A DNA stretch of 64,000 nt from a bacterium (GTDB taxonomy: Bacteria; Electryoneota; Electryoneia; Electryoneales; Electryoneaceae): contig JAHLLH010000007.1 in assembly GCA_020444265.1 (NCBI GenBank), forward strand, positions 124,001 to 188,000, in the 5' to 3' direction. Both the position numbers and the translations under genes were made by a program. The notes below the pieces were generated by a model, which did not search any database, was not told where the DNA came from, and saw only the letters and a list, made by a program, of their open reading frames with translations. Shown here one piece after another: positions 16,588 to 54,614 of this stretch. Position 1 is the stretch's first letter. Every line of letters starts with the position of its first letter.

Positions 16588-17061
16588 ATGCCATCCTATT
16601 TCTCCAAGCCTTCGGGCTATGCCATACGAGCCTTGATGTACCTCGCCAGACGGGAGGGAGAAGGGGCTGTGCTTGCCTCGAAAATTGCCGAGGAGGAGGA
16701 CATTCCACCCTCCTTCATGGGCAAGGTGCTTGGGAAACTCGCCCTGGCCGGCCTGGTGGATTCGATGCGTGGTCCCAATGGGGGATACTGGCTGGTGCGT
16801 GACCCGGCCGCGATCACCATGGCGGACATCGCAGACCTGTTTGAAACCCAGAGCTCCAGCCGTGAATGTTTACTCGGGTTCAAGGAATGCCCCGGTCCGA
16901 AATATTGTGCCCTGCACAAACGTTGGCTTGAACCGCAGAGTCACATCGATCGTTTCTTGAACCAGACCACCCTCGCCGATCTGCTCGCCGACTCCAGGGA
17001 GCGTGAGGAGCTGAAGAAGAATGCCCGAATGTCGGGCCAGGTACGCGCACGCAGGACCTGA
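16588..17061 (+). CDS. Rrf2-family transcriptional regulator with cluster-binding cysteines
   Basis: 157 residues. The N-terminal winged helix is typical (SGYAIRALMYLARREGEG, ASKIAEEEDIPPSFMGKVLGKLALAGLVDSMRG as landmarks). Three Cys follow in CLLGFKECPGPKYC, the spacing used by Rrf2 proteins to bind an iron-sulfur cluster, so it likely senses oxygen, NO or Fe-S status. It stands 46 bases before ccoI in the same direction and divergently from the decaheme cytochrome, so it may control one or both respiratory units. Comparable regulators sit by respiratory or nitrosative-stress genes elsewhere. Confidence 0.9.
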   Translation: MPSYFSKPSGYAIRALMYLARREGEGAVLASKIAEEEDIPPSFMGKVLGKLALAGLVDSMRGPNGGYWLVRDPAAITMADIADLFETQSSSRECLLGFKECPGPKYCALHKRWLEPQSHIDRFLNQTTLADLLADSREREELKKNARMSGQVRARRT

Positions 17062-17107
17062 ACCCCTACCTTAACGGGTCAGGGAAAATGAGGAGAATGT
17101 CGGGCTG

Positions 17108-19576
17108 ATGCCGGAGCCAACCGTCACCCAGAAAACACCCCACCTCGAATCCGAGGCTCCGGTGTGCTTCCACTGCGGCGAGGAGTGCAGCGACCACGAC
17201 ATCCTCCTGGACGGCAAGCATTTCTGCTGCATGGGGTGCAAGACGGTTTACGATCTCCTTTCCTCGAAAGAGATGTGCACCTACTACGATCTCTCAGAAA
17301 ATTCGCCTGGAATCAGCCCGCGCAGTGACGATGGATCGGTGAAGTATGGCTACCTGGATGACCCGGATATCATCAGGCAGATCACTGATTTCAAGGATGG
17401 CGCGACTCTACGTGCCACCTTCTCAATCCCATCCATGCATTGCGCGTCCTGCATCTGGTTGTTGGAAAACCTTCATGACCTGCAGCCGGGGGTGAGGGCA
17501 AGCCGTGTCGACTTCCTGAAGAAACAGTTGACGGTGACCTGGGACGAGGAGCAGCTCAGCCTGCGCATGCTGGTCGAGGTACTGGCGACGATTGGTTATG
17601 AGCCCCAGATCCGTCTCGAAGATATCCAGCGTGGCACGGAAAAAAAGACCCAGAAGTCGCTGATCATGCGTGTCGGGGTCGCCGGGTTCGCCTTCGGCAA
17701 CATCATGTTGCTCAGCTTCCCGGAATACCTGGCAACCAATGGCGATGTGGAAGCTTTCCTGCGCACTCTTTTCCGTTGGCTGAACCTCATCCTCGCCATC
17801 CCGGTGGTGTTTTACAGCGCCCAGCCCTATTGGTCGAGCGCCTTCAAAGGGTTGCGTGCGAAAACTGTCAACCTCGATGTCCCGATCACTCTCGGGGTTT
17901 CAGCGCTGTTTGGTTGGAGTCTCTACGAAGTGTTGAGCGGGATCGGCCCTGGTTATTTCGATTCACTTGCCGGGCTGATCTTCCTGCTTTTAGTGGGCAG
18001 GGTCTTCCAGGAGAAGACCTATGCCGCCTTCTCCTTTGAACGCGACTATTCCTCCTACTTCCCCCTGTCGGCGACGCTGCTTGAGGGGACGGGCCGTGAG
18101 AAGAGTGTCCCGGTGACCCAGCTCAAACCGGGATCACGTATCGTAGTCCGAAACCAGGAATTGATCCCGGCAGACAGTGTATTGATCAACGGTACCGGCA
18201 GCATCGACTATGGATTTGTCACGGGCGAATCGGACCCCATGTTAAAGGCGAGCGGGGACCTGATTTATGCCGGGGGCCGTCAAGTGGGACCGGCGATTGA
18301 ACTGGAGGTGGTGGAGGAAGTATCCCGTTCCCACCTCGTGCGTTTGTGGAACCAGGATGCCTTTACGCAGGACCGTGAGGGACGATACACCGCTTTGGCG
18401 AACCGGATCAGCAAGTACTTCACCGCTGCCATCCTGTTACTCGCGACAGGCGCGTTTGCCCTTTGGGCGCCACATGGCATCGGGACGGCGGTCAAGGTGT
18501 TTACGGCGGTCCTGATTGTTGCCTGCCCCTGTGCGTTGGCGCTGGCGACACCCTTCACCCTCGGCACGGCCATGCGTCTGCTGGGCCGTTTCGGATTCTA
18601 CCTGAAAAATGCTGAGGTGGTGGAACGTCTCGCTGCCATCGGCACCATCGCTTTTGACAAGACGGGCACCCTGACCGCCGCCGGCAGTAGCCAGGCCGAG
18701 TGGGAGGGGGAGGCGCTTAGCGAGCGGGAACGTTCCCTGGTCCGTAGTGTGGTCCGTCACTCGACCCACCCGCTAAGCGTGAAAATTCACACCCAGCTCG
18801 CAGAAGAGCCATTGATGGACACCGGCCAGGTGGAAGAGGTGCCCGGGCACGGGTTGCTGGGTGAGATCGAAGAGCATGTTGTCCGAATCGGCTCGGCTCC
18901 CTGGGTGGGCGCGGATGCCGATCACCCGGTGGCGCTGCAATCGGATGGTACCTCGCAAAGTGTTGCCTGGGTCTCCATCGACGGCGAAGTGCTCGGTCGG
19001 TTCCGTGTATCAAACTTGATTCGTCCCGGGCTTGAAGAGGTGATCCACGACTTGCGTGAGGAGCACGATCTCGTGCTGATATCGGGGGATACGGATCGTG
19101 ACCGTACCACCCTCGAACCGTTATTTGGACGGGAAGCGCTCCATTTCCAGCAGAGCCCGCACGACAAGCTGGCCTTCATCGAGCAGCGTCAAGCGAACGA
19201 TGATCACGTGCTGATGGTGGGGGATGGACTCAACGATGCAGGCGCGCTGCGAGCCGCGAGTGTCGGCATTGCGGTGACCGAGGATGTGACCAGTTTCTCT
19301 CCTGCCTGCGATGCTTTGCTTGATGCGGAATCATTGCGTCGCATGCGTAAAATCCTCACCTTTTCGCAGCGTGCGGTGAGGGTGATCGCAGCCTGTTTCG
19401 CCTTGTCCTTTGCCTACAATCTTGTCGGGCTTACTTTCGCAGCGGCGGGCAAGCTTTCGCCTTTGGTTTCGGCGATCCTGATGCCGCTCAGCTCGATCAC
19501 AATCGTGATAGTTGCCACCGGCCTGACCACGCTTGTCGCCCGTACCACCCTCGGCAAACCGGAGGCAGGGCGATGA
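17108..19576 (+). CDS. ccoI: copper-transporting P-type ATPase for cbb3 oxidase assembly (CcoI/FixI)
   Basis: 822 residues. The N-terminal Cys-rich segment CFHCGEECSD ... FCCMGCKTVY is the CcoI-specific zinc-finger-like region, followed by an HMA domain (SMHCASCIWLLE). The membrane part contains the CPC metal site in VACPCALALATP (about residue 473). The cytosolic loops hold the phosphorylation motif FDKTGTLT (about 516) and MVGDGLNDAGAL (about 705). It moves copper for insertion into the CuB site of cytochrome cbb3. The original 3' end overlapped ccoS by ATGA; a repeat insertion has since separated them. Confidence 0.95.
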   Translation: MPEPTVTQKTPHLESEAPVCFHCGEECSDHDILLDGKHFCCMGCKTVYDLLSSKEMCTYYDLSENSPGISPRSDDGSVKYGYLDDPDIIRQITDFKDGATLRATFSIPSMHCASCIWLLENLHDLQPGVRASRVDFLKKQLTVTWDEEQLSLRMLVEVLATIGYEPQIRLEDIQRGTEKKTQKSLIMRVGVAGFAFGNIMLLSFPEYLATNGDVEAFLRTLFRWLNLILAIPVVFYSAQPYWSSAFKGLRAKTVNLDVPITLGVSALFGWSLYEVLSGIGPGYFDSLAGLIFLLLVGRVFQEKTYAAFSFERDYSSYFPLSATLLEGTGREKSVPVTQLKPGSRIVVRNQELIPADSVLINGTGSIDYGFVTGESDPMLKASGDLIYAGGRQVGPAIELEVVEEVSRSHLVRLWNQDAFTQDREGRYTALANRISKYFTAAILLLATGAFALWAPHGIGTAVKVFTAVLIVACPCALALATPFTLGTAMRLLGRFGFYLKNAEVVERLAAIGTIAFDKTGTLTAAGSSQAEWEGEALSERERSLVRSVVRHSTHPLSVKIHTQLAEEPLMDTGQVEEVPGHGLLGEIEEHVVRIGSAPWVGADADHPVALQSDGTSQSVAWVSIDGEVLGRFRVSNLIRPGLEEVIHDLREEHDLVLISGDTDRDRTTLEPLFGREALHFQQSPHDKLAFIEQRQANDDHVLMVGDGLNDAGALRAASVGIAVTEDVTSFSPACDALLDAESLRRMRKILTFSQRAVRVIAACFALSFAYNLVGLTFAAAGKLSPLVSAILMPLSSITIVIVATGLTTLVARTTLGKPEAGR

Positions 19577-19596
19577 AAACGTTCCGGGAAGGTAGT

Positions 19597-19776
19597 GTCA
19601 TCCCCAGCGCGATAGGATGCGGTAGCATCCTTGTAGCCGAAGGCCACCCCCAGCGCGTCGGGGACCCCCGGGGTGGAGAACGAACGATTCGTGCTTCGAT
19701 CGACGGGGATCCCCGACGCTCGCGGGTTCCCTTCGGTCACGACAGGGCTGTTGCCCTGTTGCGCGCTGGGGATGAC
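19597..19776. repeat. element with GTCATCCCCAGC inverted ends, copy 1
   Basis: 180 bases; ends GTCATCCCCAGCGC and GCGCTGGGGATGAC are inverted repeats. Inside lie hairpins GGATGC-GGTA-GCATCC and ACAGGGC-TGTT-GCCCTGT and a second inverted pair, GCGTCGGGGA and TCCCCGACGC. Other copies, with different stem sequences, are at 25590-25763 and 37949-38121. Confidence 0.85.
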
Positions 19777-19780
19777 AGGT

Positions 19781-19855
19781 GTAGCACGGGCATCTTGCCC
19801 GTGCATCGCGCGCCGGGCGCGCGCCGGGCGCGTAAGACGTGGGCGTCTGCCGCAA
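19781..19855. repeat. triple-hairpin unit, GCACGGGC variant
   Basis: Three consecutive hairpins: GCACGGGC-ATCTT-GCCCGTGC, a GC-only CGCGCC stem, and AGACG-TGGG-CGTCT, ending in CGCAAC. The order matches the units at 23071, 25456, 37704 and 54420. It joins directly to the preceding element and supplies the rest of the insertion upstream of ccoS. Confidence 0.7.
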
Positions 19856-19871
19856 CTCTGGAGGCAGGGCG

Positions 19872-20075
19872 ATGAATGTCATCTTTGTCCTCGTCGTCGC
19901 ATCGCTCCTCGTGGCCCTTGGTTTTCTCGCCGCCTTTTTGTGGGCGGTCAAGAGCGGGCAGTTTGAGGATGGCTACACCCCGTCGGTCCGGATGCTGTTC
20001 GAGGACCGCAAAAAGAGCAAACAACAAAACACCATAGACAACCAGCAAGAACGGGAGCATGACGATGCCAAGTAG
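19872..20075 (+). CDS. ccoS: cbb3 oxidase maturation protein CcoS
   Basis: 67 residues. One N-terminal transmembrane helix (VIFVLVVASLLVALGFLAAFLW) is followed by the family motif AVKSGQFEDGYTPSVRMLFED and a charged tail. CcoS is needed for cofactor insertion into CcoN. Start ATG 19872 has GGAGG 9 bases upstream, in the second copy of the duplicated junction. The stop overlaps the start region of ccoNO (20059-20075). Confidence 0.92.
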   Translation: MNVIFVLVVASLLVALGFLAAFLWAVKSGQFEDGYTPSVRMLFEDRKKSKQQNTIDNQQEREHDDAK

Positions 20076-22188
20076 CGTCGACACCTTCCAGTACGACAAC
20101 CGGATCGTAAAACAGTTCGCCATTGCCTCGATGGTTTTCGGTGTGGTGGGCATGACGGTCGGGTTGCTTGTAGCCCTGCAGATGTTCCTGCCGCAGCTGA
20201 ACTTCGGGTCTCCTTTCACAACGTTCGGGCGGATACGCCCTCTCCACACAAACGCTGTGATCTTTGCCTTTGTTGGCAACGCGATTTTCATGGGCGTCTA
20301 CTACTCCATGCCGCGCCTGCTCAAAGCGCCGATGTGGAGCAAGAAGCTCAGCCAAATTCATTTCTGGGGCTGGCAGACGATCATCCTCAGTGCGGCGATC
20401 AGCCTGCCGCTCGGCTTGACCACCAGCAAGGAATATGCTGAGCTGGAGTGGCCGATCGACATCGCCATCGCAGTAATCTGGGTGATCTTCGGCATCAACA
20501 TGTTCATGACGATCCTGAAACGACGGGAGCGTCACCTCTATGTGGCGATCTGGTTCTACATCGCCACCGTGGTGACAGTCGCCGTGCTGCATGTCGTCAA
20601 CTCCTTCGAGATTCCGGTCAACCTGCTGAAGAGCTACTCGCTCTACGCGGGTGTGCAGGATGGCCTGGTGCAGTGGTGGTACGGGCATAACGCGGTGGCG
20701 TTTTTCCTGACAACACCCTATCTCGGCCTGATGTATTACTTCCTGCCGAAGGCGGCGAATCGTCCCATCTATTCCTACCGTCTTTCGATCATCCACTTCT
20801 GGGCGCTGATCTTCATTTACATCTGGGCCGGTCCGCATCATCTGCTATACAGTGCGCTTCCGGACTGGGCGCAGAGCCTCGGAACAGTCTTCTCGATCAT
20901 GCTGATCGCGCCTTCCTGGGGTGGGATGCTGAACGGCCTCCTGACCCTGCGCGGTGCCTGGGACAAGGTGCGTGAAGACCCGGTGTTGAAGTTTATGGTG
21001 GTCGCGATCACCGCCTATGGTATGGCAACCCTCGAAGGACCGTTGCTCTCGTTGAAGTCGGTCAACGCGATTACTCACTTCACCGATTGGACAATTGCCC
21101 ATGTCCATGTCGGGGCGCTTGGCTGGAACGGTTTCCTCACCTTCGGCATTCTCTACTGGTTGATCCCACGCATGTACGGGACCAAGCTGCACAGCGTGAA
21201 GCTGGCCAACGCCCACTTCTGGATCGGGACGCTTGGCATGCTTTTCTATGTCATCCCGATGTACTGGGCTGGCTTGGCGGAAGGCCTGATGTGGAAGCAG
21301 TTCACCGCCGAAGGTTTCCTCCAGTACCCGAACTTCCTTGAGACGGTGCTCCAGGTGGTGCCGATGTACATCGCCCGTGCGATTGGTGGCAGCCTCTTCC
21401 TGACCGGCGTCCTGCTGGGTGGCTACAACCTGATCGCGACGGCTCGCGGCGGCAAATTTATTGCCGAAGAAGAAGCCTCCGCACCGCCACTTGAAGCGCA
21501 GCCAAAGCCGGAAAAGGGTGGCTACTACCACCGTTGGATCGAGCGTCGTCCGGTCCAGTTCCTCCTGCTTTCGACAGTCGCCATTCTCATCGGCGGCATT
21601 GTCGAAATGGTCCCGATGTTCGTGATCAAGTCGAACGTTCCCAGCATTGCCAACGTCAAACCCTATACGCCGTTGGAGGTGGAGGGGCGGGATATCTACA
21701 TCCGTGAAGGGTGTGTCTCCTGCCACAGCCAGCTGGTTCGTCCCTTCCGCAGCGAAACCGAACGGTATGGCGAGTACTCGAAAGCGGGAGAATATGTCTA
21801 CGATCATCCCTTCTTGTGGGGCTCAAAACGTACCGGTCCTGACCTGCACCGTATCGGCGGGAAATATCCGGACGCCTGGCATTACAACCACATGTTGGAA
21901 CCGACCTCGATGTCACCCGGTTCGCTCATGCCGCCCTTCCCATGGTTGATTGAGGACGAACTGAATACCCACAACACCGCCGCGAAGATCCGTGCGCTGC
22001 GAAAGGTGGGGGTTCCCTATGCGAAGGACTACGATGAGCAGGCGCTGGAGGATTTGCAGACCCAGGCCGCTGCCGTCTCGCAGTCCCTTGCCGATCAGGG
22101 TATCCAAGTCGATTCGGACCGTGAAATCATCGCGCTGATCGCCTATCTCCAGCGACTCGGTACTGACATTAACCCATCCGCGAACTGA
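20065..22188 (+). CDS. ccoNO: fused cytochrome cbb3 oxidase subunits I and II (CcoNO)
   Basis: About 707 residues. I prefer ATG 20065 (GGGAG seven bases upstream) over ATG 20059. The first about 480 residues are CcoN: twelve helices with heme and CuB histidines in PLHTNAVIFAFVG, WWYGHNAVAF, WAGPHHLLYSALPDW and THFTDWTIAHVHVGALGWNG. A linker rich in Ala, Pro and Glu leads to CcoO: one membrane helix (FLLLSTVAILIGGIVEMVP) and a c-type heme motif CVSCH near residue 550. The enzyme reduces oxygen to water with high affinity and pumps protons. Separate ccoN and ccoO genes are the rule in Proteobacteria; the fusion is known in Bacteroidetes relatives. Confidence 0.95.
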   Translation: MPSSVDTFQYDNRIVKQFAIASMVFGVVGMTVGLLVALQMFLPQLNFGSPFTTFGRIRPLHTNAVIFAFVGNAIFMGVYYSMPRLLKAPMWSKKLSQIHFWGWQTIILSAAISLPLGLTTSKEYAELEWPIDIAIAVIWVIFGINMFMTILKRRERHLYVAIWFYIATVVTVAVLHVVNSFEIPVNLLKSYSLYAGVQDGLVQWWYGHNAVAFFLTTPYLGLMYYFLPKAANRPIYSYRLSIIHFWALIFIYIWAGPHHLLYSALPDWAQSLGTVFSIMLIAPSWGGMLNGLLTLRGAWDKVREDPVLKFMVVAITAYGMATLEGPLLSLKSVNAITHFTDWTIAHVHVGALGWNGFLTFGILYWLIPRMYGTKLHSVKLANAHFWIGTLGMLFYVIPMYWAGLAEGLMWKQFTAEGFLQYPNFLETVLQVVPMYIARAIGGSLFLTGVLLGGYNLIATARGGKFIAEEEASAPPLEAQPKPEKGGYYHRWIERRPVQFLLLSTVAILIGGIVEMVPMFVIKSNVPSIANVKPYTPLEVEGRDIYIREGCVSCHSQLVRPFRSETERYGEYSKAGEYVYDHPFLWGSKRTGPDLHRIGGKYPDAWHYNHMLEPTSMSPGSLMPPFPWLIEDELNTHNTAAKIRALRKVGVPYAKDYDEQALEDLQTQAAAVSQSLADQGIQVDSDREIIALIAYLQRLGTDINPSAN

Positions 22189-22201
22189 GGAGGATCGACT
22201 C

Positions 22202-22390
22202 ATGATGAGCCAGATGCTGCAAGCGGTTTCCGCCAATCTTGGCGCCTACCCGGCAATCTCCCTGATTCTCTTCTTCGTGGTGTTTGTCGGGATGCTCGCG
22301 ATGGTGCTCCGGATGAAGCGGACGCACATCGAACACATGGGCGCGCTGCCCTTGGACAACGCAGAACAGGGAGATGTCACCCATGGCTAA
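22202..22390 (+). CDS. ccoQ: cbb3 oxidase small subunit CcoQ
   Basis: 62 residues, preceded by GAGGAGG. One transmembrane helix (AISLILFFVVFVGMLAMVL) followed by RMKRTHIEHMGALPLD, the usual CcoQ layout of a helix and a short polar tail. It stabilises the core complex. Its position between ccoNO and ccoP, with a small overlap into ccoP, supports the call more than sequence identity, which is low in this family. Confidence 0.85.
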   Translation: MMSQMLQAVSANLGAYPAISLILFFVVFVGMLAMVLRMKRTHIEHMGALPLDNAEQGDVTHG

Positions 22391-23063
22391 GCATAAGGAC
22401 GAGCTACTGAATCACGATTATGACGGCATTCAGGAGTTCGATAACGATTTGCCGGGATGGTGGAAGGGTCTCTTTTACATCACCATCGTTTTCGCCTTTG
22501 TCTACCTCACCTGGTGGCACGTGCTGGGAATTGGTGACACCCAGGAAGTGAAGTACGAGAAGTCGATGAACCCAGCCTATGTCCCCCTGCCGGAAGACCA
22601 GGAACAGACCCTGGTTGACCTGGTGTTTCCCCAGTTCAAGGCGCCCTACACCAAACCGGGCCGTGAACTGAGCCAGGCCGAAATTCTCGGCGGGGTCAGC
22701 CTCATGCCGCAGGAAGAGGTGATCGAGGTCGAGATGGATACCGATGTCGAACCGGTCATGGTGGCCGCCGCGCTTGCGGACGGGAAAAAGATCTACGACC
22801 AATACTGCTTCACCTGCCACGGCATGGCCGGTGAAGGCGGGATCGGGCCAAACCTGACCGACGATTTCTGGATTCACGGCGGCACATTCCCGGATGTGGT
22901 GCACACGATCCGTGTCGGTGTCCCGATCAAGGGGATGATCGCCTGGGAACGTTCCCTGCCGAAAGAGGATATCGTCAAGGTCGCCAGCTATGTCTGGGGT
23001 ATGCACGGCACCTCGCCGCCCAATGCCAAAGCACCGCAGGGCGAGGAATTCGCGAGGCAGTAG
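22383..23063 (+). CDS. ccoP: cbb3 oxidase subunit III with a single heme c (CcoP)
   Basis: 226 residues from ATG 22383 (22374 is an alternative). The N-terminal FixP_N segment is clear (YDGIQEFDNDLPGWWKGLFY, then a transmembrane helix to YLTWW). After a linker comes one cytochrome c domain with CFTCH (about residue 142) and a Met-containing distal loop (GVPIKGMIAWERSL). Canonical CcoP is near 300 residues with two hemes; only one CXXCH is present here. It feeds electrons from periplasmic cytochromes to CcoNO. Confidence 0.92.
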   Translation: MAKHKDELLNHDYDGIQEFDNDLPGWWKGLFYITIVFAFVYLTWWHVLGIGDTQEVKYEKSMNPAYVPLPEDQEQTLVDLVFPQFKAPYTKPGRELSQAEILGGVSLMPQEEVIEVEMDTDVEPVMVAAALADGKKIYDQYCFTCHGMAGEGGIGPNLTDDFWIHGGTFPDVVHTIRVGVPIKGMIAWERSLPKEDIVKVASYVWGMHGTSPPNAKAPQGEEFARQ

Positions 23064-23070
23064 GGGTTTA

Positions 23071-23389
23071 TGTTCCGTCAGGTCCTTAGCGAAGCGGAGA
23101 CCTGACGGAACATCGCGCTTGAGGCGCGAATCATGTGTCAGATCTAAAGATCTGACACAACGGCACGACGCACAATCCGTCAGACGATGGCGTCTGACGG
23201 AACAATAGTGGCTTGGGTGCCCCGTCACCCAAGCGAAGCATGTCAGCACGATCAAGTTGTTCGGTCAGGTCTCCCGACCTGACCGAATTTCCGCCAGGTC
23301 AGGAGACCTGGCGGAACAGGGACACGCAATTCGTGCCAACGGCACGATCATCTGTCAGGTCACCGCTTCGCTAAGGACCTGACGGAACG
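23071..23389. repeat. array of hairpins with inverted end modules, between ccoP and ccoG
   Basis: The gap between ccoP and ccoG is filled by successive hairpins with 9-13 bp arms: GTTCCGTCAGGTC/GACCTGACGGAAC, a CGCGC stem, GTGTCAGATC/GATCTGACAC, CCGTCAGAC/GTCTGACGG, TTCGGTCAGGTC/GACCTGACCGAA, TTCCGCCAGGTC/GACCTGGCGGAA. The last, ending 23389, is an inverted copy of the first including its loop (CTTAGCGAAGCGG), so the whole is a symmetric element of about 320 bases. No ORF in it is credible. Confidence 0.85.
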
Positions 23390-23428
23390 ACAGAGACGAA
23401 ACAACTGGCAGCTAACATTGAGCCGAAG

Positions 23429-24916
23429 ATGATTGTCATTCAGGACCAGGGGGGCGAGAAGGGGAAACGGGAGAGCAATGAACCCGTCGATCCGCCCATC
23501 TCGTACCGGGATCGGATCGCCACGATGGATGCCGAAGGGAAACGTAACTTCATCCATCCGAAGAAGCCAAAAGGGCGGAAACATCGCGCGCGCTTTATCG
23601 TGGCGATGGTCCTTGTCGCCATCTTTTTCGCCGGTCCCTGGATCAAGATTGGCGGTCATCCGCTGTTGCTGCTGAATGTGCTGGAACGTCGCTTTGTCAT
23701 TCTCGGCCAGCCCTTCTGGCCGCAGGACTTCCACCTCTTTTTCCTCGCGATGATCGCGACCATTGTATTCATCCTGCTGTTTACGGTGGTCTACGGCCGC
23801 CTCTTCTGCGGCTGGGTCTGTCCGCAAACCGTCTTCCTGGAAATGGTCTTCCGCAAGATCGAGTACTGGATTGATGGCGATCGTGTCGCGCAAATGAAGC
23901 TGCGTGCCCGTCCCTGGGACGAGGTCAAGGTTTTCAAACGTCTCGCCAAACACGGTATCTTCATCTTTATCTCCTTTGCCGTCGCCAACACCTTCATGGC
24001 CTACCTGGTGGGGACGGATGGTTTCTTCGAACGCGTCACCCAACCGCCCAACCAGCATCTCGGTGCCTTCTTCGGGGTTGTCTTTTTCACCGGCCTCTTC
24101 TACTTCATTTTCTCCTGGTTCCGTGAGCAGGCCTGCACCCTGGTCTGTCCCTATGGCCGGTTGCAGGGAGTCCTGCTCGACAAGGATTCGATTGTCGTCA
24201 ACTACGACTGGGTCCGTGGCGAACCGCGCACGAAACCGCGTTACGCCAAGGGCAAGGACGATGTCGGTGACTGCATCGATTGCAGCAAGTGTGTGCAGGT
24301 TTGCCCGACAGGGATCGACATCCGCAACGGCACCCAGCTCGAGTGTGTCAATTGCACCGCTTGCATTGATGCCTGCGACAGTGTGATGGATGCGGTCAAG
24401 AAGCCGCGCGGATTGATCCGCTATGCCTCCCACAATTCCATCGAAAGCGGCACGCCTCTGAAGTTCGGCGGGAGGATGGTCGCCTATTCGGCGGTGTTGT
24501 TGATCCTGCTTGGCGTGCTCGCATTTTTGTTGATCAGTCGCAGCGATGTCGAGACAACCGTCCTGCGCACGCCCGGCATGCTCTACCAGCCGGTGGATGA
24601 GGACCATGTGCGGAATCTCTACTCGTTGAAGATGGTCAATAAGACGTTCGATGAGATGCCGGTCCGTCTGGTGGTCGTCGAACCGGAAGCGGGCATCGTG
24701 AACCTGGTCGGAACCGACCTGGTGATCGAATCGAACAATGTGATCGAGTCGGCTTTCTTTGTGACGTTGCCCATCAATGAGCTTGAGGGCGTAAAAACAC
24801 CCCTCCGGATCGAGGTCTATTCGGGAGATCGGAAATTGGAGACGGTGAAAACCAGCTTCATGGGCCCGGCAACCCGTCACCACGATGACGACCATGATGA
24901 GGAAGATGATGACTGA
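23429..24916 (+). CDS. ccoG: cbb3 oxidase accessory protein CcoG (FixG), ferredoxin-like
   Basis: 495 residues. Four or five membrane helices occupy roughly residues 55-215 with the NapH/FixG-type motifs LFCGWVCPQTVFLEM and REQACTLVCPYGRLQG. A double cluster ferredoxin segment follows (CIDCSKCVQVCP and CVNCTACIDACD). The C-terminal third is an Ig-like FixG_C domain in the periplasm. CcoG is a cupric reductase that supplies Cu(I) for oxidase assembly. The protein ends in an unusual His/Asp/Glu-rich tail (HHDDDHDEEDDD), possibly metal-binding. Overlaps ccoH. Confidence 0.95.
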   Translation: MIVIQDQGGEKGKRESNEPVDPPISYRDRIATMDAEGKRNFIHPKKPKGRKHRARFIVAMVLVAIFFAGPWIKIGGHPLLLLNVLERRFVILGQPFWPQDFHLFFLAMIATIVFILLFTVVYGRLFCGWVCPQTVFLEMVFRKIEYWIDGDRVAQMKLRARPWDEVKVFKRLAKHGIFIFISFAVANTFMAYLVGTDGFFERVTQPPNQHLGAFFGVVFFTGLFYFIFSWFREQACTLVCPYGRLQGVLLDKDSIVVNYDWVRGEPRTKPRYAKGKDDVGDCIDCSKCVQVCPTGIDIRNGTQLECVNCTACIDACDSVMDAVKKPRGLIRYASHNSIESGTPLKFGGRMVAYSAVLLILLGVLAFLLISRSDVETTVLRTPGMLYQPVDEDHVRNLYSLKMVNKTFDEMPVRLVVVEPEAGIVNLVGTDLVIESNNVIESAFFVTLPINELEGVKTPLRIEVYSGDRKLETVKTSFMGPATRHHDDDHDEEDDD

Positions 24917-25385
24917 TCCAGCCAAACAGCCCCCCAAACGAGAGACCTGGCCGATTGCGATCGGGGTGGTGCTGGTGGTCTTTGTCCTCGCCGTCGTGGG
25001 TTTCGGCCTCTTTTCGATCACCCAACGGAACGATTTGGTGGTTCGGGATTACTACGATGCCGGTCTGGAATACCAGAAACAAGTTGAAAGTGAGGAACGA
25101 GCCTCCGAAGGTGGCGCGCCGTTGACCGTGGCCCAGCTCAAGTCGCCACGTGGGGTTCGTTTGACCTTTGCCGAACGGTTCCGTAATCGTCCGCTCGATG
25201 GCAGCATCCGGCTCTATCGCCCCTCGAACGCTGGCTTTGACAAGAGCTTCGAGTTGGCGCTTGATGGGGACGCCCGTCAGCTCGTCCCGATGGAGAAGTT
25301 GCCTCCCGGCTACTGGAAGGTGAAGGTGGTCTGGACCCTTGATGGCGAGGAGTACTACCATGAAGAGGGGTTTGTGCTGGAGTAG
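24909..25385 (+). CDS. ccoH: FixH/CcoH family oxidase assembly protein
   Basis: 158 residues; start at ATG 24909 with GAGG six bases upstream, just before the ccoG stop. One N-terminal transmembrane helix (WPIAIGVVLVVFVLAVVGFG) and the family motif NDLVVRDYYDAGLEYQKQV, followed by a beta-rich periplasmic domain (VRLTFAERFRNRPLDGSIRL). FixH/CcoH proteins interact with CcoP and are needed for stable cbb3 oxidase. Transcription into the SafE gene must cross a 389-base stretch of repeats. Confidence 0.9.
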   Translation: MTDPAKQPPKRETWPIAIGVVLVVFVLAVVGFGLFSITQRNDLVVRDYYDAGLEYQKQVESEERASEGGAPLTVAQLKSPRGVRLTFAERFRNRPLDGSIRLYRPSNAGFDKSFELALDGDARQLVPMEKLPPGYWKVKVVWTLDGEEYYHEEGFVLE

Positions 25386-25545
25386 TGTAGCATGGGCATC
25401 TTACCCGTGCATCGCGCCCTCGGCACGAATCAAGTGTCAGATATAATACTGTGGAGTTCCGTCAGGTCCTTAGCGAAGCGGAGACCTGACGGATGATCGC
25501 GCCTGTGGCGCGAATCAAGTGTCAGATCTGAGGATCTGACACAAC
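25384..25545. repeat. two adjacent triple-hairpin units downstream of ccoH
   Basis: The first (25384-25452) starts GTAGCATGGGCATCTTACCCGTGC and is degenerate at its third stem. The second (25456-25545) is intact: GTTCCGTCAGGTC with loop CTTAGCGAAGCGG, then ATCGCGCC-TGT-GGCGCGAAT, then GTGTCAGATC-TGAG-GATCTGACAC-AAC. A stray extra half stem follows to 25566. Confidence 0.8.
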
Positions 25546-25589
25546 GGCGAACGGATCTGACACAACGGTGAACGACCATAACGTGTTCT

Positions 25590-25763
25590 GTCATTCCCAG
25601 CTCCCAATCCGGCGACAGCCGGATCGTGTGCGAAGCACACCAGGGAGCGTCGGGAATCCCCCTGATCGAGCACGAAAGAGATGACCTCAGCAGGAGGGGA
25701 TCCCCGACGCGACTGGGCGTTACACGCGTGCCTGCTTCCGCAGGCAATGTCGCTGGGGATGAC
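25590..25763. repeat. element with GTCATCCCCAGC inverted ends, copy 2
   Basis: 174 bases from GTCATTCCCAGC to GCTGGGGATGAC. Internal hairpins are ATCCGGC-GACA-GCCGGAT, GTGTGC-GAA-GCACAC and TGCCTGC-TTCC-GCAGGCA. Its right end (GATGACAGAGGG) runs into the ribosome site of the SafE-like gene at 25775. Confidence 0.85.
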
Positions 25764-25774
25764 AGAGGGATTTC

Positions 25775-26506
25775 ATGGAACTTTACACGGCATTTATCCT
25801 CGGTTTCTTCGGTGGGCTGCACTGCATCGGCATGTGCGGACCGATTGTTATCGCTCTGCCCATCGGGGGAAAGGGCGGAGTGCATTTCCTCATCAGCCGG
25901 TTGCTCTACAACCTGGGCCGTGTGGTGACCTATGTCCTCTTCGGGCTGCTTGTCGGCTTGCTGGCAAAAGGGGTCTCGCTGGCAGGATACCAGCAGGTGC
26001 TCTCGATTATCCTCGGTAGCCTGATTGTGCTCGGTGTACTGTTGCCGAAGAAATGGACCAGCCGTCTCTTCCCGATGGGCTCTTTCACCACCCTTTCCAG
26101 CAAGGTTAAGCAGCTCTGGGCACGCATGTTCGGCAAGGGCAGCCTGTCGGCGTTGTTTGTGATCGGGATTCTGAACGGCTTCCTGCCCTGCGGCTTGGTC
26201 TATACGGCTGTTGCCGGAGCGGGCTCGACCGGATCGGTCGAGGGCGGCATGGCCTACATGGCGCTGTTCGGGGTTGGGACGATTCCCGCCCTGCTAGTTA
26301 CCTCTTATGCGGGGAAGCTGATTGGGATCGGATTTCGCAGACGGCTGCTGAAACTGATCCCGGTCGCGGCACTGGTGCTGGGTGTGCTGCTGATTCTGCG
26401 TGGCATGAACCTCGGCATCCCCTACATCAGTCCGAAGGCGGGCATGAAGCACGGCAATCACGGCCAGACCGAACAGACCATGGAATGCTGCCATCCGGGG
26501 GAGTAG
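25775..26506 (+). CDS. SafE/TauE-like (UreH-domain) membrane protein of the cbb3 locus
   Basis: 243 residues with six or seven membrane helices. The opening AFILGFFGGLHCIGMCGPIV carries the HCxxMCGP motif of the UreH/SafE-like subgroup, and FLPCGLVYTAVAGA is its second half repeat. Members regularly sit at the end of cco clusters in Bacteroidetes and Epsilonproteobacteria, and are thought to help copper or sulfur handling during oxidase assembly; the exact substrate is unknown. The Cys and Met residues in the helices fit a copper role. ATG 25775 is preceded by AGAGGG. Confidence 0.85.
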   Translation: MELYTAFILGFFGGLHCIGMCGPIVIALPIGGKGGVHFLISRLLYNLGRVVTYVLFGLLVGLLAKGVSLAGYQQVLSIILGSLIVLGVLLPKKWTSRLFPMGSFTTLSSKVKQLWARMFGKGSLSALFVIGILNGFLPCGLVYTAVAGAGSTGSVEGGMAYMALFGVGTIPALLVTSYAGKLIGIGFRRRLLKLIPVAALVLGVLLILRGMNLGIPYISPKAGMKHGNHGQTEQTMECCHPGE

Positions 26507-26516
26507 GGTGGTAGAG

Positions 26517-26710
26517 GTGTCATCCCGGGCTTGACCCGGGATCCAGCCGAGAATCTCTTCTACGAAGCCATTGGTCGGCCCCCAGCGACGGCATTGCTTT
26601 GATGGACATGGCTCCCGGACCCGGTGTCACCTACTGACAGCCTGGGGTCTTGCGGTAGAGCTGTACCCAACCGTTGGATGCTGGGTCCCGGGTCAGGCCA
26701 GATATGACAC
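26517..26710 (+). repeat. interspersed element, CCCGGGCTTGACCCGGG family, copy 2
   Basis: 194 bases from GTGTCATCCCGGGCTTGACC to the inverted end ATGCTGGGTCCCGGGTCA ... ATGACAC. It begins 10 bases after the stop of the SafE-like gene. The interior is more diverged than in the other copies. The remaining 130 bases before the desaturase hold no recognised feature. Confidence 0.75.
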
Positions 26711-26840
26711 CGTTCTCCTGATTTTCGCTCTCTTCCTGAACTTTCCCATTGGAACTCTAACAAAGCGTTGCTACACTTCACCGGTCCGAGGCGGACTATT
26801 CTACCGAACAGTTCCGTCGCATAAGACGCCCTCTAACGAG

Positions 26841-27845
26841 ATGCAAGCGTTCATGGATCGAAAAGCACTGCAAAAACAGGTGCGCAAGTACGCCACCCCG
26901 GACCATACGAAATCCATCCTCCAAATCTTCACCAGTTTCGTTCCTTACATCGCCATCTGGGCGATTATGATCACCTTCATGCAGGTCGGTTTTCCCTACT
27001 GGGTGACCTTGCTGCTGGTGCCGGTTGCGGCTGTGTTCCTGACACGTACCTTCATCATTTTCCACGATTGTTGCCACCATTCCTTTTTCCGCTCGTCCAA
27101 GGCGAACAAGATTGTCGGTCACATCTTCGGCATCCTCGCTTTTACACCCTACGAGAGCTGGGGCCATGCCCACATGATCCACCATTCGACCGTTGCAGAC
27201 CTGGGACGGCGTGGAATCGGGGATGTCTGGACGATGACGGTCAAGGAATACAAGGCGGCCAGCAAATGGACCCGTTTCCTCTACCGGTTGGTCCGTAACC
27301 CCTTTGTCATGTTCGTGCTCGGCCCGATTGGAGTCTTTTTCCTCAAGCACCGCTTTTATGACAAGAGCACGACTCGTGCAGGAAAGGTTAGCACAATTGT
27401 TACCAATGTCGCCCTGCTTGCGCTGTTGGTAGCCGCCCATTTCACGATTGGGATCAAGACCTTTCTGCTGATACAGCTTCCCATTATGTGGTTCGCCGGG
27501 ATGGTGGGCATCTGGCTCTTTTACGTGCAGCACCAGTTTGATCCGACCCATTGGTACCCGCACGAGGATTGGGACTACCTGACCGCCGCCCTGCACGCCA
27601 GTTCTTACTACAAGCTGCCGAAGGTGCTGCAATGGATGAGTGGCAATATCGGGTTGCACCATGTCCACCATGTCAATGCCTTCGTGCCGAACTACCGGCT
27701 GCAGGAATGCCTTGACAACACACCCTTCCTGCAGCAGGTCAAGCCCTTGACCCTCTGGGAAAGCTTCAAGACGGTGAAGATGAACTTGTGGGATGAAGAA
27801 CAGGACAAATTGGTCAGTTTCGGATCGTTGAAAAAAACGGGGTGA
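26841..27845 (+). CDS. membrane fatty acid desaturase
   Basis: 334 residues from ATG 26841 (26853 is possible); the long upstream frame crosses a repeat and is not coding. Paired membrane helices flank three histidine boxes of the di-iron site: HDCCHHSFF (about residue 76), HMIHHST (about 111) and HHVHHVN (about 272). This is the acyl-lipid desaturase (DesA/omega-6) group, which inserts double bonds into membrane fatty acids using oxygen and reduced ferredoxin. A 7-bp hairpin (27845-27864) directly at the stop may end the transcript. Upstream and downstream gaps are filled with repeats. Confidence 0.92.
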   Translation: MQAFMDRKALQKQVRKYATPDHTKSILQIFTSFVPYIAIWAIMITFMQVGFPYWVTLLLVPVAAVFLTRTFIIFHDCCHHSFFRSSKANKIVGHIFGILAFTPYESWGHAHMIHHSTVADLGRRGIGDVWTMTVKEYKAASKWTRFLYRLVRNPFVMFVLGPIGVFFLKHRFYDKSTTRAGKVSTIVTNVALLALLVAAHFTIGIKTFLLIQLPIMWFAGMVGIWLFYVQHQFDPTHWYPHEDWDYLTAALHASSYYKLPKVLQWMSGNIGLHHVHHVNAFVPNYRLQECLDNTPFLQQVKPLTLWESFKTVKMNLWDEEQDKLVSFGSLKKTG

Positions 27846-27873
27846 CACAGGGACACTCCTGTGTTCGAGAACC

Positions 27874-28034
27874 CGTCATTGCGAGGACCGTAGCGCAGCG
27901 AAGGGACGTGGCAATTTGCGCCCTTCCTGCGGTGCCACCCGGCACCGTTCCGCCTCCACTCGCACGCATCTGAGGGCTACGGCCCTCAATAAAAGCAGAT
28001 TGCCGCACTGCGCTTCGCTTCGTTCGCAATGACG
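27874..28034 (+). repeat. element with CGTCATTGCGA inverted ends, copy 1
   Basis: 161 bases beginning CGTCATTGCGAGGACC and ending TTCGCAATGACG. It shares GTAGCGCAGCGAAGGGACG and GCAGATTGCCGC with the copy at 52056-52218. In both places a CCCGGG-family element follows 28 bases later. Confidence 0.85.
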
Positions 28035-28062
28035 TGTGGGGAGTTGCACAGGTGAACCAACC

Positions 28063-28282
28063 CTGTCTTCCCGGGCTCCTGTCCCGCCGTAGCCTTGGCG
28101 AAGGCGGATGACCCGGGATCGAGCATCCTTCGCCTTGCATGGGCCACTCCATAGGCCCCCAGCGATAGTGCTTACAACGTGGTTCGGACCTCGCGACGCC
28201 CTGTCCATTCGACCTCGGATTGGATCAATCGAGGCTGCTTACACAGTGGATGCTAGACCCCGGAACACGTCCGGGGTGACAG
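28063..28282 (+). repeat. interspersed element, CCCGGG family, copy 3
   Basis: 220 bases between the desaturase and the SDR gene, with core GCCCTGTCCATTCGACCTC and TTGGATCAATCGAGGCTGCTT almost identical to copy 4. Its left arm contains an extra hairpin (GCCGTAGCCTTGGCGAAGGC). It ends 10 bases from the stop of the SDR gene. Confidence 0.8.
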
Positions 28283-37698: not shown

Positions 37699-37703
37699 CT
37701 GTT

Positions 37704-37825
37704 GTTCCGTCAGGTCCTTAGCGTAGCGGAGACCTGACGGACCTGTAGCACGGGCATCCTGCCCGTGCATCGCGCCGCAGGCGCGGAGGGGGACGTCCGG
37801 CTGGCGCCGGACATCGCCGGATTCG
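37704..37825. repeat. triple-hairpin unit downstream of the DHH gene
   Basis: Starts with the GTTCCGTCAGGTC stem (loop CTTAGCGTAGCGG), continues with GCACGGGC-ATCCT-GCCCGTGC, the CGCGCC-GCA-GGCGCG stem and GTCCGGC-TGGC-GCCGGAC. This is a mixture of the two variants seen at 19781 and 25456. Confidence 0.75.
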
Positions 37826-37861
37826 GAGAATACGGCCTATATTTGATGAATGTAGATGGTT

Positions 37862-37893
37862 GCGTCAGGTCCGAAGACCTGACGCGTTTTTTT
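37862..37893 (+). terminator. second repeat-type hairpin with T tract
   Basis: GCGTCAGGTC-CGAA-GACCTGACGC followed by GTTTTTTT. Formally a Rho-independent terminator on the plus strand, although no plus-strand gene precedes it apart from the already terminated DHH gene. Confidence 0.7.
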
Positions 37894-37948
37894 GATGAAT
37901 AGGCCCGACTTGCGAGCATGTCGGGCCACCCACGATCAGCCTGCCTCT

Positions 37949-38121
37949 GTCATCCCCAGCACGCAATCCGGTGCAACCGGATCGTGACCGAAGGGAACCG
38001 GCGGGCGTCGGGGATCCCCCGAAACGATGTACGGAACCCTGGCACATCGCCGCGGGGATCCCCGACGCGCTCAACCCCAACAGCAAAGCCCGCTGGCGCG
38101 GGCTTGAGCGCTGGGGATGAC
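37949..38121. repeat. element with GTCATCCCCAGC inverted ends, copy 3
   Basis: 173 bases; hairpins ATCCGGT-GCA-ACCGGAT and AAGCCCGC-TGGC-GCGGGCTT, and the inverted pair GCGTCGGGGATCCCC/GGGGATCCCCGACGC. It ends 9 bases from the stop of the GH31 gene. Confidence 0.85.
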
Positions 38122-38130
38122 ACTCTGCCT

Positions 38131-51926: not shown

Positions 51927-52055
51927 ATCGCCCGACATGTACGATAAGGGTGGCATGGTAAGCGTAGCTTGCCATGCTTGCATTCTTGGCGTCCAGGTAC
52001 AGGTCACAGAATGCACGCGTGGCTATCTGCGATAACCACGCCACCCATGTATACA

Positions 52056-52218
52056 CGTCATAGCGAGGACCGTAGCGCAGCGAAGGGACGTGGCAATCTG
52101 TGCTTTGCCCACGGTGCCCCAAGGCACCGTTTCACCTCCGCCCGCACCCCTCTGGGGGCTGCCGCCCCCAATTCAAGAGCAGATTGCCGCCCGGCGCTTC
52201 GCTTCGTTCGCAATGACG
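52056..52218 (+). repeat. element with CGTCATTGCGA inverted ends, copy 2
   Basis: 163 bases from CGTCATAGCGAGGACC to TTCGCAATGACG. Internal hairpins (CGGTGCC-CCAA-GGCACCG, GGGGGCT-GCC-GCCCCC) differ in sequence from copy 1 but stay paired. A CCCGGG-family element follows. Confidence 0.85.
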
Positions 52219-52246
52219 AATGGGGAGCTATCCGAAGTAGGCTACA

Positions 52247-52434
52247 TGTCATCCCGGGCTTGACCCGGGATCCAGCATCCTTCGCCTTGAAAGAGGTACC
52301 CCATCGGCCTCCAGCGAAAGTGCCTGGACTGTGGTTCGGGGCGAGCGATGCCCTGTCCATTCGACCTCAGATTGGATCAGGCGAGACTGCTTGGAGATTG
52401 GATGCTGGGCCCCGGATCAAGTCCGGGGTGACAC
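52247..52434 (+). repeat. interspersed element, CCCGGG family, copy 4
   Basis: 188 bases with clean inverted ends (CATCCCGGGCTTGACCCGGG and CCCCGGATCAAGTCCGGGG) and the shared core GTGGTTCGGGGCGAGCGA and GCCCTGTCCATTCGACCTC. It ends 24 bases from the stop of the GH5 gene. Confidence 0.85.
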
Positions 52435-54418: not shown

Positions 54419-54614
54419 CGTTCCGACAGGTCCTTAGCGTAGCGGAGACCTGACGGCAGATCGCGCCGCTGGCGCGAACAGTGTGTCAGATCTGAGGATC
54501 TGACACAACCTGTAACAGAACCCAGTGTAAACGTTCTGTCAGGCCCCTGAGCCTGACAGATGATCGCGCGCTTTGCGCGCGAATCGTGCGTCCGACGTGG
54601 GCGTCGGACGCAAC
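54419..54614. repeat. two triple-hairpin units upstream of the GH5 gene
   Basis: Unit one (54419-54511): GTTCCGACAGGTC stem with loop CTTAGCGTAGCGG, CGCGCC-GCT-GGCGCG, GTGTCAGATC-TGAG-GATCTGACAC-AAC. Unit two (54533-54614): TGTCAGGC-CCCT-GAGCCTGACA, ATCGCGCGC-TTT-GCGCGCGAAT, GCGTCCGACG-TGG-GCGTCGGACGC-AAC. The layout is the same while the third stems have unrelated sequence. Confidence 0.85.

Follow-up and report, generated by a model that had tools for sequence, protein, structure and literature searches.

The ccoI-ccoS junction and its insert

The window, the whole stretch of 64,000 nucleotides that was analysed, carries ccoI and ccoS with a CcoN-CcoO fusion gene downstream of them (Table 1). 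The ccoI product matched heavy-metal P-type ATPases (PF12156 and HMA domains), and CcoS was identified as TIGR00847/FixS. The fused ccoN and ccoO form a single 709-aa gene at 20059-22188, and the nearest relatives of its product in the searched collection came from MAGs labelled Neomarinimicrobiota (77%) and Calditrichota (74%). An exact match search found the 17-mer GGAGGCAGGGCGATGAA twice at the ccoI-ccoS junction. The two copies are separated by 282 bp (19578-19859) with a G+C content of 67%, and the ccoI stop codon TGA sits within the left copy. An earlier note on this DNA had described such a 17-mer on both sides of a 282-base insert, one copy closing ccoI and the other opening ccoS; the two exact copies and the gene coordinates bear this out. 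The 17-mer did not occur in any of 100 shuffles of the window, and the 4.33-Mb genome yielded no further exact match. Together with both 17-mers, the insert showed strong self-pairing (-187 kcal/mol, z -7.7), and no Rfam family was found within 17000-27000.

Table 1. Features at the ccoI-ccoS junction (positions in the window)
Feature	Position	Strand	Basis or remarks
ccoI, copper P-type ATPase, 822 aa	17108..19576	+	ORF, domain matches, ccoS neighbour
Left 17-mer GGAGGCAGGGCGATGAA	19561..19577	+	ccoI codons EAGR and stop; Shine-Dalgarno (SD) and ATG; exact match
Putative relay ORF, 100 aa	19573..19875	+	left ATG to right TGA; predicted from sequence
18-bp filler AACGTTCCGGGAAGGTAG	19578..19595		unique in the 2.06 Mb of genome searched, 3 mismatches allowed
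Element A, 182-bp imperfect palindrome	19596..19777		14-bp terminal inverted repeats TGTCATCCCCAGCG / CGCTGGGGATGACA
Element B, GTAG-tagged, REP-like	19780..19856	+	hairpin GTAGCACGGGCATCTTGCCCGTGC, ATCGCGC..GCGCG hairpin, degenerate third hairpin ending GCAAC
TCT, 3 bp	19857..19859		between the presumed end of module B and the right 17-mer
Right 17-mer, junction duplicate	19860..19876	+	provides ccoS SD and ATG; exact match
ccoS, 67 aa	19872..20075	+	TIGR00847 above cut-off; PF03597

The insert is a mosaic, in which an A-type palindromic element is followed by a GTAG-tagged, REP-like module. The GG that flanks element A is part of its extended right end, and the filler had no second copy that would make it part of a repeat family (Table 1). 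About 57 recognisable copies of A were present in 2.06 Mb of genome. Since most of them were only 73-92% identical to their nearest neighbour, the A copies are old. Module B occurred in about 40 copies (42 matches in the genome), and its tag and hairpin GTAGCACGGGCATCTTGCCCGTGC, at 19781, were nearly invariant across about 30 of them. At one masking threshold, 424 repeat clusters were delimited in 2.36 Mb, in which different hairpin modules were joined in varied orders. No donor for the whole block was found elsewhere in the genome, the best matches being 77% for A and 81% for B.

Mosaics built from the same hairpin modules were also seen in the window at 23071-23164, 25386-25764, 37703-38122 and 54419-54512. 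Two of these four belong to the cco operon, and the mosaic at 25386 immediately follows the stop codon that closes the gene at 24885-25385. A pair of blocks some 24 kb from one another (27871-28281 and 52053-52433; families D3, D4 and D9) were 81-91% identical over ~400 bp. On contig C4 (223049-223968), copies of B were spaced regularly at about 286-296 bp, resembling a tandem array. On contig C6 (109366-109816; locus L167, 9366-9816), two A elements 271 bp apart were 99.4% identical, and this pair probably represents a recent local duplication in an otherwise old family.

The junction in related genomes

Four genomes of the same family carried ccoI next to ccoS. In three of them the genes overlapped by the 4-nt ATGA, in the fourth they were separated by a 4-nt gap, and none of the four had an insert between the two genes. 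The repeat block was searched in 12 relatives at E<=0.001 and gave no match. In more distant genomes, spacings of -4, -1 and short gaps were common, and some Bacteroidota had longer spacers that were unrelated to the insert. As the relatives have bare junctions without an insert, the insertion at ccoI-ccoS is a real and derived event, in which the junction was duplicated. The comparison of relatives' junctions, proposed in the earlier note as a check, thus upheld an ancestral 4-nt overlap or something very near it, with single junctions in the same family. The ancestral empty site would have borne a single 17-mer, as judged from a comparison at the level of the family rather than the genus. 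The two 17-mers are identical at about a dozen sites that should be largely free to vary in one copy or both, and by our own arithmetic this suggests a neutral divergence since insertion below roughly 20%.

Flanking duplications and candidate enzymes

At the 57 A elements, no excess of matching flanks of 2-9 bp was found at offsets of -3 to +3, and no duplication of at least 11 bp was found within 150 bp of 26 other A copies, apart from two with repeat flanks. The cluster survey covered 2.36 Mb (54% of the genome), in which clear non-repeat flanking duplications occurred at only 2 of 402 clusters, with lengths of 17 bp and 43 bp; a cross-pair control gave an expectation of none. Direct repeats of similar score were present at 0.6% of random positions, mostly at spacings divisible by three, as in coding repeats. 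Given this background, the two cases provide no statistical link between the modules and duplications. They are also unlike in length and in modules, which argues against a fixed-length cut. The 17-bp duplication is therefore no signature of the repeat family. The idea that long target duplications characterise A or the clusters was rejected, as none above chance were seen at the 57 A copies and none that were clear at 400 of 402 clusters. The same counts went against the mobilising enzyme with a characteristic long duplication that the earlier note had considered; it had named the lack of flanking repeats at other copies as what would refute it, and nearly all copies lacked them. As the A copies are old, flanking duplications beside old clusters could have decayed.

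The 43-bp case lies on contig C1 (201154-201380; locus L201, 1154-1380), upstream of a ferritin-like gene. There, hairpin modules of about 120 bp in total separate the 3' tail of a DinG-like helicase gene from a second copy of that tail (43 bp, 86% identical). The right copy reads VVYKNYEDMARDMHVF-stop versus VVYKNYDDLARDLHAF, and the substitutions look conservative. For this reason, the site may be a remnant of a gene tail and was set aside as a parallel to the ccoI-ccoS event.

A rival explanation is transposition: an enzyme generating target duplications of long or variable length would have inserted a module, or an element since eroded, and further modules would have been added later. The clean duplication lies close to the modules (18 bp from the edge on one side and 3 bp on the other), A bears terminal inverted repeats, and duplications at old copies could have been lost. 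There is also a precedent, as IS1634 and IS1549 generate long direct repeats of variable length, 8-514 bp, around the insertion (PMC2266710). However, neither an IS1634-type nor a DDE_Tnp_1 transposase was found in the 94% complete genome, so that both were rejected as the source of the insert, and the other repeat copies do not have such direct repeats. A resembles MITEs in being short and non-autonomous, with terminal inverted repeats (14-bp) and many copies, but it differs from them in that target duplications at its 57 copies did not exceed chance and the families searched (DDE_Tnp_1, IS1634) yielded no parent transposase.

The genome does contain three Y1_Tnp (RAYT-type) genes. Enzymes of this type have relatives in the IS200/IS605 class, which is reported to leave no larger duplications (PMC2817692). 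The GTAG class of REP elements consists of a 5' GTAG tag and a hairpin (PMC3733652). Module B is similar to the GTAG-REP/RAYT system (PMC3733652, PMC2817692) in its tag, which stands immediately 5' of a short hairpin, and in its high copy number (42 matches); where its copies lie relative to genes was judged from sampled copies and approximate gene calls. A further likeness is the Y1 gene on contig C1, which has an inverted GTAGGCCGGATTC hairpin pair beside it. On the other hand, B is without a cognate Y1 neighbour and is followed by further hairpin modules. Only one of the three Y1 genes had inverted GTAG hairpins beside it, their sequence differs from B, and no REP matching B lay beside any of the three. 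This RAYT-like gene is at C1:212-517 (locus L159), near the contig end, and adjoins inverted GTAGGCCGGATTCTTGAATCCGGC hairpins; the GTAGGCCGGATTCTTGAATCCGGC hairpin recurs in the cluster at C1:201154. With the enzymes and flanks as found, we regard transposition as rather unlikely.

Proposed capture of the repeat block

The best explanation, to which we give somewhat better than even chances, is a one-off capture of the repeat block during repair or replication, which duplicated the junction and possibly created a relay between the two genes. The 282-bp block (filler, A and B) would have entered a ccoI-ccoS junction that formerly overlapped by ATGA, and the event would have duplicated 17 bp of it. 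We infer the repair or template-switch step by elimination: the block would have been captured by one-off break repair or template switching rather than by a transposase whose long target duplication is of set length, either at a staggered break whose two sides were filled in, or when a strand left its template during copying and came back 17 bp before the point where it had left. This kind of capture is favoured because the two duplications found differ in length and modules. The earlier note had offered a replication- or recombination-based duplication as its alternative, and this was the better reading, as nearly all other copies lack such a duplication and the transposase families searched for were not found.

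The insertion would have survived since the duplicated stretch supplied the ccoI stop as well as the ccoS Shine-Dalgarno sequence and start. In a weaker step of the proposed course, the block may have become a 100-codon relay, so that ribosomes leaving ccoI were still passed on to ccoS. It had been pointed out that the duplicated segment holds exactly what both genes need. The elements named are indeed present, but their presence is no special sign, because insertions that broke a gene would probably have been lost. Survivorship explains the neat fit, which therefore cannot be counted separately in favour of a special mechanism. An insertion into the overlap that duplicated nothing would break one gene or remove the start of the other. 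The junction thus illustrates cleanly that two overlapping genes can take up DNA harmlessly only if the overlap itself is duplicated; as evidence of a new mobilising enzyme, the insertion fails.

Alternatively, slippage could have duplicated the junction first, after which the genes separated and repeats gathered in the spacer. The repeats of this genome do occupy the spaces between genes and expand as mosaics, and local tandem units containing A exist, as the 99.4% identical pair illustrates. However, the filler adjoining the left 17-mer resembles neither the start of ccoS nor the end of ccoI, no longer tandem unit is visible, and an insertion almost exactly at the boundary of a 17-bp tandem would be a coincidence. 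We consider this order of events improbable.

The putative relay ORF and the comparison with MIRUs

The insert had been called non-coding, which is not fully accurate, as an ORF of 100 aa (19573-19875) is open across its whole length. Because the repeat has a period of 299 bp (2 mod 3), the left ATG is in phase with the right TGA, and the frame is free of stops. The start of this ORF overlaps the ccoI stop by 4 nt and its stop overlaps the ccoS start by 4 nt, resulting in the order ccoI-ATGA-orf100-ATGA-ccoS. Profile searches gave no family match for its product. By rough gene calls, -4 nt is the commonest close gene spacing in the genome (144 pairs), and such overlaps couple translation (PMC6728339, PMC12548453). 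A translational relay from ccoI to ccoS is therefore plausible, though putative. The chance of such a frame was about 5% (0.138 open by shuffle x 1/3 for phase), and 15 of 26 A copies were open in the relay frame anyway, so that selection is possible but the case from this probability is not compelling. An RNA accessibility calculation for both starts did not separate the models.

It is conceivable, although we hold it only tentatively, that duplication of ATGA around an open insert of 2 mod 3 length turns repeat DNA into a translated, doubly coupled ORF. If this were so, CcoS translation would stay tied to that of CcoI and a new small gene would have arisen inside the operon. A translated relay frame would offer a simple route from repeat DNA to a coupled gene, comparable to the described MIRUs, and no dedicated MIRU-like element would be needed.

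Mycobacterial MIRUs are reported to insert at start codons and to contain an ORF whose coupling is at -4 nt (Supply 1997; PMC12548453). The ccoI-ccoS insert is similar to them in several respects: a repeat lies at a start codon, the stop and start codons overlap, and a predicted internal ORF overlaps both neighbours by 4 nt in an architecture that would preserve downstream translation. By comparison, MIRUs are a family repeated at many operons, whereas the relay here is found at one site, and the ccoI-ccoS insert has a 17-bp duplicated junction and a palindrome mosaic. By rough gene calls, only one of 130 module-bearing gaps between genes of the same direction, that of ccoI-ccoS, had a relay ORF, and no other was found over a repeat cluster in these gaps. 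The insert resembles a MIRU insertion in architecture, which does not imply membership of that family. A dedicated system that aims at ATGA overlaps and inserts units with a relay frame, as mycobacterial MIRUs are described as acting (PMC12548453), would explain the -4 nt overlaps on either side of an open 100-codon frame. With a single relay among 130 gaps and the same modules in many other contexts, such a system is very improbable here. An assembly error or chimera is hardly credible either: the genome is a draft of 19 contigs and hairpin-rich DNA is difficult to assemble, but both genes and the operon are uninterrupted on a contig of 218 kb, and a misjoin would not readily produce an exact duplication of 17 bp from which both genes benefit.

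At another locus (L164, 2974-3134), a 55-codon ORF has -4 nt overlaps with both of its neighbours and contains no repeat modules; it is possibly an unlisted small gene.
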